From positions 84,018 through 148,017 of the forward strand of contig CACIXF010000003.1 of NCBI GenBank assembly GCA_902590535.1: DNA of 64,000 bases, given 5' to 3'. This document shows positions 11,464-29,830 of the stretch, one piece after another (the first letter of the stretch is position 1; each line of letters starts with the position of its first letter). The position numbers and the translations under genes were made by a program. This DNA comes from an uncultured Pelagibacteraceae bacterium (GTDB lineage: Bacteria > Pseudomonadota > Alphaproteobacteria > Pelagibacterales > Pelagibacteraceae). The notes under the pieces were generated by a model. That model was not told the DNA's origin. It searched no databases and worked only from the letters and a program-made list of their open reading frames with translations.

Positions 11464-12059
11464 CTAAAATCAGTAGATAAAGAGGCTATATTTTCTTTAG
11501 ATAATTTTGTGCTATGAGAATACTCTTTATGATCAATTCCAAGCTCAATTTCTGAGCTATTAGATTGAAATTTTCCTATTTGATCATCAGTAAAATTAAA
11601 ATGAATAAACTGTACTGATGAAGCTTTTCCTTCAGAAGAAGTTCTATCAACATCTTCTTCGGGAACTGCTTTAATTATCTCACCATTTATTTTCATAAAT
11701 ACTGTTTCTTCTATTCCACCAACTTTTCCGAGAAACGCAGCCCTTGAGATAGGATTATCTATTTCAAACATTAAAGTTGCTGTTAGTTCTTTGCCTTTAG
11801 GTATTAAAGGATTGTACGCAGATAACTCATCCTGAAGTTGCTCATCACCACCTTTTTCAATGTATAGCATTTCTTGTACTTGAGCTAACATTGTTTCATA
11901 ACTTTCAAAATAAAAAGTAGCATAAGGCCCTAAAGCAACTCTTCTATTTTTTTTATAATCAACAATACTTTTTCTTAATTCACGTCTCTTTTCTATATAA
12001 ACATCTAAAGGCATGATGTCTTCTTTTTGAATTTCTCTTTTTTCTCTAGGCATGATCAT
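11460..12059 (-). CDS. DUF3501 family protein
   Basis: Matches the DUF3501 family, whose members start with REIQKEDIMPLDVYIEKR-like sequence and carry KRRVALGPYATFYFES. It is 199 aa, with no signal peptide and no cysteine cluster visible. Function is unknown. The family is recurrently found next to a rubrerythrin and a two-cluster Fe-S CCG protein, as here. It overlaps the upstream Fe-S gene by ATGA (12056-12059), so translation is probably coupled. The two are likely to work in one pathway. Confidence 0.8.
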   Translation of the reverse strand: MIMPREKREIQKEDIMPLDVYIEKRRELRKSIVDYKKNRRVALGPYATFYFESYETMLAQVQEMLYIEKGGDEQLQDELSAYNPLIPKGKELTATLMFEIDNPISRAAFLGKVGGIEETVFMKINGEIIKAVPEEDVDRTSSEGKASSVQFIHFNFTDDQIGKFQSNSSEIELGIDHKEYSHSTKLSKENIASLSTDFS

Positions 12060-13387
12060 AAGTTATAACTTTTTGCCATCAATTCGATAGGGTGTAGTGC
12101 CTCATCATTAGATATATTTGTATCAACTTCTAACTGTTTTAAATGTTTACCAGCTAAGGGACAATCAGAAGCCATATACTTATTATTTTTAGTTTTTATT
12201 TGTCTAGCTGTAGGTCTTCCAACTTTATTTGCTAAATCATGAGTTTCTTTCATTACTCCAAAAGTTCCTCCATGACCTGCACATCTTTCAACTACATCAA
12301 TTTTAACGTTTGGTATAAATTTTAACATATCTCTTGCTTTGATACCCATATTCTGTGCTCTAGCATGACAAGCATGATGCACAGTTACTCCTCCATCAAT
12401 CTCATTTAATCCTTCTGCTAATCCCTCATTGTTTGCAATGTCCACAACATACTCATCAATATCCATAACATTTGAAGATAATTTTTTTATTTTTTCATCG
12501 TTTGGTAATAACAAGGGCCATTCGAATTTTAACATCAATCCACAACTAGCTGTTAAGGTTACTACTTTATATCCTTTATCAATCCATTCGATTAAATCCT
12601 TAGAAACTTTTTTTGCTTGTTCAACAACTTTTGGCAGATCTGCTTGCTCTAAAAATGGCATCCCACAACAACCAGGATAAGCTTCTTGAACCTCTACACC
12701 ATTTTTTTTCAAAACTTTTAATGCAGCAACACCCGTATTTTTTTTATTAAAATTTACAAAACAAGTTGAATAAATAACTACTTTTCTATCTTTAGAAGGT
12801 GTTTGATAATTTATCTTATCTCTATTTTTTTTGAAAAAATTAGAAAAAGTTTCTGAGTTATATTTTGGTAACTGAACTCTTTTATCTATTCCAGTAATTA
12901 ATTCTAAGATTTTTCTAATTAATTTATTTTTAATATTTGATGCCCAGTTAACTATTTTAGAGAACATGACACCAATTTTAGCGTTTCGGTCTATTTGAGC
13001 TAATTGTGTTGGTACGCTTGATAATTTACCTAATTTTTTTTGAGCTGTTCTATATCGCAGCATTAAATGTGGAAAATCTAAATCAAAATCATGAGGTGGA
13101 ACATATGGGCATTTAGTCATAAAACACATATCACACAATGTACATGCATCAACTACAGGGGCAAATTGATCGCTAGATAAGCTTTCAACATCTTCATTTT
13201 TAGATTCATCAATCATGTCAAATAGCTTTGGGAAAGAGTCGCAAAGATTAAAACATCTCCTGCATCCATGACAAATATCAAACACTCTTCTCATTTCAGC
13301 GTCTAACTTTTCAGGATTTAAAAAATCAGGATGCTCAAAATCTATAGGGTGTCTTATAGGTGCACCTAAACTTCCTTCTTTGCTCAT
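12056..13387 (-). CDS. Heterodisulfide reductase-related / GlpC-like Fe-S protein
   Basis: A 443-aa cytoplasmic electron-transfer protein. Two ferredoxin-type cysteine clusters lie near the N-terminus (CHGCRRCFNLC and CTLCDMCFMTKCP, about residues 39-110), each able to hold a [4Fe-4S] cluster. Two CCG-type cysteine-rich domains follow (AYPGCCGMPF and VERCAGHGGTFGV), as in HdrB/GlpC. There is no flavoprotein partner (GlpA/GlpB-like) nearby. The neighbours are a rubrerythrin without its rubredoxin domain and DUF3501, so a role delivering electrons to the rubrerythrin is a reasonable inference, not a demonstrated fact. Confidence 0.82.
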   Translation of the reverse strand: MSKEGSLGAPIRHPIDFEHPDFLNPEKLDAEMRRVFDICHGCRRCFNLCDSFPKLFDMIDESKNEDVESLSSDQFAPVVDACTLCDMCFMTKCPYVPPHDFDLDFPHLMLRYRTAQKKLGKLSSVPTQLAQIDRNAKIGVMFSKIVNWASNIKNKLIRKILELITGIDKRVQLPKYNSETFSNFFKKNRDKINYQTPSKDRKVVIYSTCFVNFNKKNTGVAALKVLKKNGVEVQEAYPGCCGMPFLEQADLPKVVEQAKKVSKDLIEWIDKGYKVVTLTASCGLMLKFEWPLLLPNDEKIKKLSSNVMDIDEYVVDIANNEGLAEGLNEIDGGVTVHHACHARAQNMGIKARDMLKFIPNVKIDVVERCAGHGGTFGVMKETHDLANKVGRPTARQIKTKNNKYMASDCPLAGKHLKQLEVDTNISNDEALHPIELMAKSYNL

Positions 13388-13452: not shown

Positions 13453-13869
13453 TTAGCTAATAGACTCTAAAGTTTTTTGAAATTTACCAGCGTGTGATTT
13501 TTCAGCTTTAGCTAAAGTTTCAAACCAGTCAGCAATTTCTTCAAAGCCTTCTTCTCTAGCTGTTTTAGCCATACCAGGGTACATATCGGTATACTCATGA
13601 GTTTCGCCTTGTACTGCCGAAGCTAAATTTGCTTTTGTTTCACCAATTGGCATACCAGTTCCTGGATCACCAACTTCTTCTAGATACTCCAAATGACCAT
13701 GTGCATGACCAGTTTCACCTTCGGCTGTTGATCTAAAAACTGCAGCTACATCATTGTAACCTTCTATGTCAGCTTTTTGTGCGAAATAAAGATATCTTCT
13801 GTTTGCTTGACTTTCACCAGCAAACGCTTCTTTTAAATTTTCTTCTGTTTTACTTCCTTTTAAAGACAT
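13453..13869 (-). CDS. Rubrerythrin (diiron domain only)
   Basis: A 138-aa four-helix ferritin-like diiron protein that in this family reduces hydrogen peroxide. Metal ligands are visible: Glu in [14 protein letters not shown], ExxH in [10 protein letters not shown], the Glu pair around [13 protein letters not shown], and ExxH in AEKSHAGKF. The C-terminal rubredoxin-like domain of classical rubrerythrin is absent (no CxxC pairs), so an outside electron donor is needed. It has a strong Shine-Dalgarno (AAAGGAG) and looks highly expressed. An Irr-type box sits upstream of its promoter. Confidence 0.9.
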
Positions 13870-13895: not shown

Positions 13896-13924
13896 CCATA
13901 TAATGCATATTGATAGTATGTCAA
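13896..13924 (-). promoter_or_regulatory. Predicted promoter of the rubrerythrin operon
   Basis: On the minus strand a perfect -35 TTGACA (13924-13919) is followed at 16-18 bases by weak -10 candidates (TATATG or TATGGT). A long purine-rich Shine-Dalgarno and the rubrerythrin ATG at 13869 follow. The Irr-like palindrome ends four bases upstream of the -35, a position more typical of activation than of simple blocking. The -10 choice is uncertain. Confidence 0.5.
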
Positions 13925-13927
13925 TAG

Positions 13928-13944
13928 TTTAGAATTATTATAAT
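13928..13944. promoter_or_regulatory. Irr/ICE-type 17-base near-palindrome upstream of rubrerythrin
   Basis: TTTAGAATTATTATAAT pairs 6 of 8 arm positions around its centre and resembles the iron control element bound by Irr in alphaproteobacteria (TTTAGAA...TTCTAAA type). It is 15/17 identical to the reverse complement of the second box upstream of irr. It lies in the irr-rubrerythrin gap, just upstream of the predicted -35. Confidence 0.6.
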
Positions 13945-13973
13945 GTAGATTTTAAGTGTATGATTTAATTAAA

Positions 13974-14402
13974 TTATTTTTGAGTTTGATTATCACTCGC
14001 AACTCTAACCAACACTTCAACAGAATTTATTTTTTTTCCTGTAATATTTTTTCTAATATTTATTTTGTCTATATCGCTCTCATCGCAATCAATTAGCTCA
14101 TGCGTATCTTCATCAAAAAAATGATGATGTGCTGATGTGTTTGTATCAAAATAACTTTTGTGACTATCGATTGAAATTTCTTTTAAATATCCTTTTTTTT
14201 CAAATGCATGAACTGTGTTATAAACTGTGGCTAGAGATATCTTTTCATTCATTTTTTCAGATATCATTTTAACAAGATCATTAATTGTGAAATGGAAAGT
14301 TTTTTCTCTATTATACAAAACTTCACACATTTTTATTCTTTGTTTGGTAGGTCTAAGCCCAACTTCTCTTAATTTTTCAATAAAATTGCAGTTTTTTGGC
14401 AT
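13974..14402 (-). CDS. irr: Iron response regulator Irr (Fur family)
   Basis: Fur-superfamily DNA-binding regulator of the Irr branch, which senses iron through haem status. The N-terminal KLREVGLRPTKQR, ISLATVYNTVHAFEKKGYLKE and SYFDTNTSAHHHFFDEDTHELID stretches fit Irr, including the HHH motif used for haem binding and the DTNTS segment typical of Irr. The cysteine-proline haem regulatory motif of Bradyrhizobium Irr is not evident. At 142 aa it is a normal length. Its position next to fabA-fabB-fabI also occurs in other alphaproteobacteria. It is probably autoregulated via the box directly upstream. Confidence 0.85.
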   Translation of the reverse strand: MPKNCNFIEKLREVGLRPTKQRIKMCEVLYNREKTFHFTINDLVKMISEKMNEKISLATVYNTVHAFEKKGYLKEISIDSHKSYFDTNTSAHHHFFDEDTHELIDCDESDIDKINIRKNITGKKINSVEVLVRVASDNQTQK

Positions 14403-14407
14403 TGTTT

Positions 14408-14424
14408 TTTATAATTATTCTAAA
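14408..14424. promoter_or_regulatory. Irr/ICE-type 17-base near-palindrome at the irr start
   Basis: TTTATAATTATTCTAAA differs from a perfect TTTAGAATTATTCTAAA palindrome at one base (7 of 8 arm pairs). It begins six bases upstream of the irr start codon and about 70 bases upstream of fabA on the other strand. Binding here would block irr expression, suggesting negative autoregulation; an effect on fabA is also possible. Confidence 0.65.
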
Positions 14425-14493: not shown

Positions 14494-14994
14494 ATGAAAA
14501 AAAACTCATACTCCTATGATGATCTAATAACTTGTGGGAATGGTGATCTTTTTGGTCCTGGTAATGCAAAATTACCACTCCCGCCAATGCTTATGTTTGA
14601 CAGAATAACTGAAATCAATGAAAATAATGGTACATTTAATAAGGGCTCTTTAAAAGCTGAATTAGATATTAAAGATGATCTTTGGTTTTTTGATTGTCAT
14701 TTTAAAAAAGATCCGGTTATGCCAGGATGCTTAGGTTTAGATGCAATGTGGCAACTGGTAGGATTTTTTCTAGGTTGGCTAGGAAATCCTGGAAAAGGAA
14801 GAGCTTTAGGAGTTGGTACTGTAAAATTTACTGGCGAAGTTTTACAGAGTGTAAAAAATGTAAGATATGAAATAGATATGAAGAAAATTATGTCTCCTGG
14901 GGGAACAACCGTTGGACTTGCAAATGGAATTGTTTTTGCAGATAATAAAAAAATATATTCAGCTGAAAGTTTAAAAGTAGGGTTATTTAAATAA
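14494..14994 (+). CDS. fabA: 3-hydroxydecanoyl-ACP dehydratase/isomerase
   Basis: Hot-dog-fold enzyme that dehydrates beta-hydroxydecanoyl-ACP and isomerises trans-2 to cis-3, the branch point to unsaturated fatty acids under anaerobic-type synthesis. The catalytic His lies in [20 protein letters not shown], with the following Asp in the DAMWQL helix. At 166 aa it is a normal length. It starts the fabA-fabB-fabI operon, overlapping fabB by one base. The short gap to irr contains an Irr-like box. Confidence 0.96.
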
Positions 14995-28085: not shown

Positions 28086-29414
28086 CTAAGCAACCTTCTG
28101 ATCCGAATTAGTTATAATTTCACCGAATAAAGTATTTCTATTACTATCTTTAATTCTTATTTGCACTATATTTCCAATATCACTCTTTTTACCATTAAAA
28201 ATTACAGATGTCATATACTCAGATCTGCCAAAAGCTTTGCTTTTATCATCGGTTAAATTTTCAACCAAAACATCTATAACTTTTCCCTTCAATGAGTTGT
28301 TCATTTGGATTTGATTTTCGAATAAAACATTTTGAATTTTTTCTAATCTTTCAAAAGAAATTTTTTTTTCAATTAAGTCTAAATCTTCAGCTACTGTTCC
28401 AGGTCTTGGACTAAAGATGAAAGAGTAAGAGTTAATAAATTTAACCCTTTCAATTAAATTAAAGGTATCTTTAAAATCCTGATCTTCTTCACCGGGATAA
28501 CCTATAATAAAATCACTTGAAAATTCTATCTTTGGATTAATTTCTTTTAATTTATCAAAAGTATTTAGATATTCCTCAATAGTATGTTTTCTATTCATTG
28601 AGTTTAAAATTTTATTAGATCCACTTTGAACAGGTAAATGTACAAGTGGCATTAACTTTTTAGAAGTTTTATAAACTTCAATCAAATCCTCAGTCATATC
28701 TTTTGGGTGAGATGTTGTGTATCTAAGTCTTTTAATTTCAGATATTTTTTCAATATTTAAAATCAAATCTGATAGTCTATATCCTTCATTATCATAAGCA
28801 TTTACATTTTGACCAAGTAAAATTATTTCTTTTGCACCATTATCAGCTAAATATTTTGCTTCATCCAAAATTTGTTTAAATGGTCTCGAATATTCTGGTC
28901 CTCTTGTAAATGGAACCACACAAAAATGACAAAACTTATCACATCCTTCTTGAATGGTTAAAAAAGATGAAACTTTTCCAGCTTCATTTTTTATTTTGCT
29001 TAAATATTTAAATTTAGAAACCGCATCAAACTCAGTCTCTTCTATCTTTTTCTTTTTTTTAATATAATTTAAAATTGTATCATTAATTTTATGATAAGCT
29101 TGAGGACCAATAACTAAATCTATGTAAGGTTCTCTTTTAAGCATTTCTTGGTTTTCTGCTTGAGCAACACAACCTGCAATGATCACCAATGGTTTTTTTT
29201 TAGATCTAAAAATTTTTTTTACTCTACCTATTTCATGATAAACTTTTTCTTTTGCTTTATCCCTAATGTGACATGTGTTTAAAAGATAACAGTTTGCTTC
29301 CTCATATTTTTCTGTTTTTTCATAACCAATTTTTTTGACTGAATCATATATTCTATTAGAGTCATACTCATTCATTTGACATCCAAAAGTTTTAATAAAT
29401 ATTTTTTGATTCAT
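28086..29414 (-). CDS. miaB: tRNA-2-methylthio-N6-dimethylallyladenosine synthase MiaB
   Basis: Radical-SAM methylthiotransferase modifying A37 of tRNAs reading U-starting codons. The N-terminal domain has the three auxiliary-cluster cysteines (FGCQMNEYDS, LNTCHIRD, AGCVAQAE). The radical SAM motif is GCDKFCHFCVVP (CxxxCxxC). A C-terminal TRAM domain follows. At 442 aa it is a normal length. It lies two bases downstream of the Fur-family gene. Confidence 0.97.
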   Translation of the reverse strand: MNQKIFIKTFGCQMNEYDSNRIYDSVKKIGYEKTEKYEEANCYLLNTCHIRDKAKEKVYHEIGRVKKIFRSKKKPLVIIAGCVAQAENQEMLKREPYIDLVIGPQAYHKINDTILNYIKKKKKIEETEFDAVSKFKYLSKIKNEAGKVSSFLTIQEGCDKFCHFCVVPFTRGPEYSRPFKQILDEAKYLADNGAKEIILLGQNVNAYDNEGYRLSDLILNIEKISEIKRLRYTTSHPKDMTEDLIEVYKTSKKLMPLVHLPVQSGSNKILNSMNRKHTIEEYLNTFDKLKEINPKIEFSSDFIIGYPGEEDQDFKDTFNLIERVKFINSYSFIFSPRPGTVAEDLDLIEKKISFERLEKIQNVLFENQIQMNNSLKGKVIDVLVENLTDDKSKAFGRSEYMTSVIFNGKKSDIGNIVQIRIKDSNRNTLFGEIITNSDQKVA

Positions 29415-29416
29415 AA

Positions 29417-29830
29417 TTATTGGGATTTTTTCTTAACCCCATATAATTCTAATTTATGGTCTACTAATTTATATCCGTATTTTTCTGCAACTTTTTTTTG
29501 CAACTTTTCAATTTCTTCGTCTACAAATTCTATGATTTCACCAGTTTTAACATCTATTAAATGATCATGATGACCTTCATTAAGCTCCTCATATCTTGCT
29601 TTCCCACCTTTAAACTCATGCTTTGTTAATATTCCAGACTCTTCAAATAGTTTTACTGTTCTATAAACAGTTGCAATACTTATTTTTGCATCAATTTTAG
29701 ATACTCTATTATAAAGCTCATCTACATCCGGGTGGTCAGAAGACTCCGACATTACTTGCGCAATTACTCTTCTTTGATCAGTTAATTTAACTCCTTTTGC
29801 TATACATTTTTGCTCTATTGTTTCTGACAT
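29417..29830 (-). CDS. Fur/Mur-family metal-responsive regulator
   Basis: Second Fur-superfamily gene in the window, distinct from irr. The sequence KLTDQRRVIAQVM, ISIATVYRTVKLFEESGIL, KARYEELNEGHHDHLIDVKTGEIIEFVDEEIEKLQ and VDHKLELYG matches the alphaproteobacterial Fur/Mur group. The CxxC of enterobacterial Fur is replaced by a DVKTG turn, and the C-terminal cysteine pair is missing. In rhizobia this branch senses manganese (Mur). Whether iron or manganese is the ligand here cannot be told from sequence. 137 aa, in operon with miaB. Confidence 0.88.
   Translation of the reverse strand: MSETIEQKCIAKGVKLTDQRRVIAQVMSESSDHPDVDELYNRVSKIDAKISIATVYRTVKLFEESGILTKHEFKGGKARYEELNEGHHDHLIDVKTGEIIEFVDEEIEKLQKKVAEKYGYKLVDHKLELYGVKKKSQ

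Follow-up and report, generated by a model that had tools for sequence, protein, structure and literature searches.

Two palindromes that flank the irr gene in the 64,000-nucleotide stretch of SAR11 DNA analysed here (the window) are both almost certainly bound by the iron response regulator Irr. Through them, Irr would probably repress its own gene and control the neighbouring rubrerythrin gene rbr, most likely by hindering RNA polymerase. The initial annotation had drawn attention to these two 17-mers, and we confirmed their positions and their 15/17 identity when one of them is inverted. The genes are ordered fabI-fabB-fabA, divergent from irr-rbr-Fe–S oxidoreductase, and the locus contains the following features:

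12056..13387, minus strand: Fe–S oxidoreductase with a CCG domain, downstream of rbr; the order irr-rbr-Fe–S gene is found across Alphaproteobacteria
13453..13869, minus strand: rbr, rubrerythrin-family diiron protein, 138 aa (Pfam Rubrerythrin, 102.5 bits)
13897..13902, minus strand: probable −10 of the rbr promoter, TATATG, with a 16-bp spacer (from the sequence and aligned relatives)
13919..13924, minus strand: −35 of the rbr promoter, TTGACA (from the sequence), its 3-bp gap to the box kept constant in relatives
13928..13944, minus strand: ICE (Irr box) of the rbr promoter, ATTATAATAATTCTAAA when read towards rbr
13974..14402, minus strand: irr, Fur-superfamily iron response regulator, 142 aa (Pfam FUR, 78.5 bits against a cut-off of 23.1)
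14408..14424, minus strand: ICE (Irr box) of irr, TTTAGAATAATTATAAA when read towards irr, a putative autorepression operator
14494..14994, plus strand: fabA, divergent neighbour that shares the gap on the irr side (Pfam FabA; synteny in nearly all irr loci)

The rbr box had been placed four bases from TTGACA and the second box six bases from the irr ATG (14402); we count three (13925-13927, minus strand) and five, and both discrepancies are matters of counting convention. The two boxes match the form of known ICE sites, TTTAGAA-N3-TTCTAAA near the promoters of iron or peroxide genes, with one mismatch in 14 positions to TTTAGAANNNTTCTAAA for the irr box and two for the rbr box. Among dinucleotide-shuffled versions of such gaps, approximately 0.1% had a best match with one mismatch and approximately 1% one with two mismatches. 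Frequent random matches in AT-rich DNA, which had been named as grounds for doubt, did occur with the loose motif (three or fewer mismatches), whose 627 matches genome-wide showed no enrichment over the 837 of a reversed control, but not with the strict, conserved one. In such AT-rich DNA, raw counts of the loose motif are uninformative. The strict form TTTAGAANNNTTMTAA had only three matches in the 1.02-Mb assembly: two are these boxes, and the third lies within a miaB-like open reading frame (window 28086-29414). Between this miaB-like gene and a tsaB-like open reading frame is a second Fur-superfamily gene, a class-1 Fur (window 29417-29830, approximately 140 bits), and we found no recurrent ICE sites flanking it.

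The protein encoded between the boxes groups with Irr. Its best NCBIfam families were IrrA (134.9 bits, cut-off 150) and Irr (122.1 bits, cut-off 170); both scores are below the cut-offs, as are those of other divergent alphaproteobacterial Irr proteins, but these remain its nearest curated families. A Fur-family tree placed SAR11 Irr with alphaproteobacterial Irr and apart from SAR11 Fur with a branch support of 80, on a long branch; this was a quick tree of a short protein with moderate support, in which rows L055 and L092, being poorly extracted, are to be ignored. In the alignment, SAR11 Irr and alphaproteobacterial Irr share the signature FDTN...HHHF, which SAR11 Fur lacks. All aligned SAR11 Irr proteins contain HHH, the HxH/HHH haem-binding motif described for Irr (PMC7762939). 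The N-terminal Cys-Pro haem regulatory motif was absent from SAR11 Irr and from nearly all aligned Alphaproteobacteria (L293 is the exception); it has been reported for some Irr proteins only (PMC7762939) and thus does not define the family.

We next consider conservation across 70 irr loci from the whole order, 61 of them from the window's own family (f1, Pelagibacteraceae). Absence of the boxes from rbr and irr orthologues, which would have spoken against the proposal, was not what we observed. The irr box was present at two or fewer mismatches in 59/61 f1 loci, compared with approximately 1.4% expected from shuffles, and in most of them its position relative to the start codon is about −22. 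When the alignment was anchored on the box, its columns were nearly invariant and the flanks variable. The rbr box was kept in all 34 aligned SAR11 rbr loci (34/34), always 3 bp upstream of TTGAC, and several members of a second family (f2) carry a perfect TTTAGAANNNTTCTAAA in their rbr promoters. One subclade (L060-L063) has an additional ICE-like site, TTTAGAATCATTATTAA, in the rbr leader, approximately 30 bp upstream of the start codon and downstream of the −10.

The irr box was not found in the f2 irr loci, except for L078, which stands outside the count of f2 rows. L078 comes from a genome assigned to f2 (G004) and is an irr-katG locus of first-family type, reflecting either horizontal transfer or assembly contamination. 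The f2 irr genes L084-L092 have no ICE and share a conserved stretch, GTATTATTATTGTAAAATACATTAA, approximately 35–40 bp upstream of the match start, which is possibly a different operator or else the promoter.

Conservation of the rbr box extends beyond SAR11. In Alphaproteobacteria of 51–68% GC, rbr and the same Fe–S gene very often come after irr, the gap contains ICE-CT(A/G)-TTGAC, and L304 and L307 carry the perfect TTTAGAA-N3-TTCTAAA palindrome. When 241 genomes were scanned blind for TTCTAAWCTRTTGAC, 22 matches were obtained, compared with 2 in controls: 19 were upstream of rbr, one was at katG, one was at a peroxiredoxin gene between irr and rbr, and one was unrelated. These sequence comparisons argue that the rbr box is an ancient element of an Irr–rubrerythrin module. 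In L325 (G160), the ICE-TTGAC promoter leads straight into a peroxiredoxin-like open reading frame that separates irr from rbr, a third kind of peroxide gene at this site.

SAR11 bacteria are among the most abundant on Earth, and Black Queen arguments cite, as a textbook case, the statement that Pelagibacter has no catalase. At many SAR11 irr loci, rbr is missing and katG takes its place. Among 147 genomes, 68 had rbr, 68 had katG, 11 had neither and none had both (hypergeometric probability 1e-30, with shared ancestry left out of account). At least eight changes between the rbr and katG states were required on a fabA-fabB tree, six of them forced by well-supported branches. Where katG adjoins irr, the gap contained a box at three or fewer mismatches in 34/34 cases, usually overlapping the spacer and the −10. 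Some katG promoters have both a −10 box and a box abutting the −35, approximately 31 bp apart from centre to centre; some rbr promoters carry this pair too, including that of the probable HTCC1062 (L046), whereas the rbr promoter in the window has the upstream box only. In the probable HTCC1062 genome (G011), rbr and suf lie where the locus tags SAR11_0399 and SAR11_0739 would place them. KatG and rubrerythrin in SAR11 have been noted separately (PMC11366302), and their exchange under Irr operators appears to be undescribed in the searchable literature.

The box also disappears with the regulator. According to a Fur-family census, Irr-class proteins are missing from seven katG-bearing genomes in four genera, and the katG upstream regions of these genomes contained only background matches (4–5 mismatches). 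In G090, katG lies directly beside fabA, and irr and the box are both gone. Conversely, in three genomes of the f2 genus g8, irr is elsewhere and katG sits behind a tRNA-Pro-like gene, yet a good box was present in 3/3. The loss of the box in irr-less genomes and its retention in g8 tie it to Irr rather than to location, and suggest that the ICE upstream of katG depends on Irr. Together, this dependence and the deep conservation support Irr binding and control of both window genes, as originally proposed.

We had also been led to expect matches at other iron and haem genes, but none emerged, and the strict motif was essentially confined to the irr locus. The other strict matches in complete genomes fell for the most part within coding sequence and did not recur; the few intergenic ones (for example, L246 and L248) were each at a different gene and likewise not recurrent. 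It is conceivable, at somewhat less than even chances, that a global iron regulator has been reduced in SAR11 to a switch for peroxide defence at one locus, with a plug-in slot in which each lineage has either non-haem rubrerythrin or haem KatG, the two having been exchanged repeatedly, and with loss of Irr entailing loss of the operators. Separately, in the probable HTCC1062 genome, about five ICE-like palindromes, TTTAGAANNATTCTAAT, are repeated in tandem every 32 bp (L249:1168-1317; G011 contig 1, approximately 76.17–76.32 kb). The array lies in a long non-coding AT-rich stretch, and of 201 genomes of the genus just one more has it (G504 contig 20; L343 and L344); it might serve as a sponge for Irr or represent a minisatellite.

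What we observed is conservation, promoter architecture, joint loss with irr and the exchange of genes; from these observations we infer Irr binding, the haem or ROS signal and the sign of regulation. Irr, encoded between the boxes, would bind both palindromes as ICE operators. At 14408-14424 it would block the irr promoter; autorepression, which the initial annotation had proposed, is likely given that the box lies just upstream of the start codon and downstream of a conserved TATAAT-like sequence. At 13928-13944, Irr would abut the rbr −35 and control a gene for peroxide or iron handling, most likely by hindering RNA polymerase, and rbr would be expressed once haem sufficiency or oxidative stress inactivates Irr. 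Elsewhere in SAR11, katG occupies the slot, with the box over the −10.

The sign at rbr is where we depart from the initial annotation, which had favoured activation. In that model, Irr binds both boxes and represses itself, but activates rbr at low iron or haem by contacting RNA polymerase from a box whose centre is near −47. The 3-bp spacing to the −35 is rigid across the class, and activators often need fixed phasing; Irr is moreover reported to be capable of activation, according to where the ICE lies (PMC7762939), and a microarray study of P. ubique found a 1.57-fold rise of the rbr transcript when iron was limiting (PMC2864753), the opposite of simple low-iron repression. We nevertheless consider activation rather unlikely and repression the better reading, because a −35 with the consensus TTGACA points to a promoter that is strong in itself, because relatives, including L046, have further boxes over the −10 or within the leader that make sense for repression only, and because of the Rhodobacter data. 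In R. sphaeroides, Irr represses mbfA, which was 8-fold higher in an irr mutant. It represses ccpA modestly: this gene, with a 5′ end mapped approximately 40 nt downstream of a similarly placed box, was 1.8-fold higher in that mutant (PMC3413700). The P. ubique microarray does not decide the sign, since Irr-repressed R. sphaeroides mbfA also rises approximately 1.5-fold under iron limitation (PMC3413700); we therefore judged the case for activation made from that change to be weak. Two further observations speak against our preferred reading: in P. ubique, neither the irr transcript nor the Irr protein responded to iron (PMC2864753), and the window's protein scores below the NCBIfam Irr cut-offs.

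Two further explanations concern the signal and the boxes themselves. SAR11 Irr might act mainly as a peroxide-responsive local repressor of the neighbouring peroxidase, in the manner of PerR or FurA, with haem and iron secondary. Its partner genes (rbr, katG and a peroxiredoxin) scavenge peroxide, the strict scan gave no wider iron regulon, a regulator adjoining katG recalls actinobacterial furA-katG, and rbr went up, not down, in iron limitation (PMC2864753); however, HHH and FDTN...HHHF are retained and the protein groups with Irr, not Fur. We regard this as improbable, slightly more so than activation. That the boxes are AT-rich palindromes that arose by chance, or another regulator's sites, fits the common and unenriched loose motif, but is largely refuted by conservation at the level of single columns, by the same position in genomes of 51–68% GC and by loss together with irr, and we give it very little credence. 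Operators through which Irr represses itself and hinders transcription of rbr thus remain our preferred reading. Approximately half of the SAR11 species in our sample have katG in the regulated slot where others have rubrerythrin. This yields a simple, testable model for the control of peroxide defence by haem or iron status in a streamlined cell, and the irr-rbr versus irr-katG state offers a marker whose distribution can be traced in ocean metagenomes.

Irr, ICE and Irr control of rubrerythrin-like genes are already known, and Rodionov et al. in 2006 may already have predicted ICE sites in P. ubique, including the two boxes. The Irr/ICE systems of Rhizobiales and Rhodobacterales (Bradyrhizobium bfr, mbfA and hmu; R. 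sphaeroides mbfA and ccpA) use the same 17-bp type of ICE and, as in SAR11, a Fur-superfamily Irr with the HHH motif. In R. sphaeroides, too, Irr targets rubrerythrin-like and peroxidase genes (PMC3413700). SAR11 differs from these orders in that KatG or a free rubrerythrin is the controlled protein in place of membrane-bound MbfA, that the irr locus alone is apparently controlled, and that its Irr lacks the Cys-Pro motif and scores below the NCBIfam Irr cut-offs. Actinobacterial furA-katG consists of an autoregulated Fur-superfamily regulator directly adjoining katG, an arrangement shared with SAR11, in which, however, the Fur subfamily and operator are different, katG has its own promoter and box, and the partner is interchangeable with rbr. 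The PerR regulons of Firmicutes likewise combine Fur-family control of rubrerythrin or katA with autorepression; SAR11 Irr would pair autorepression with control of rubrerythrin or catalase in the same way, but through a different subfamily and a different box.
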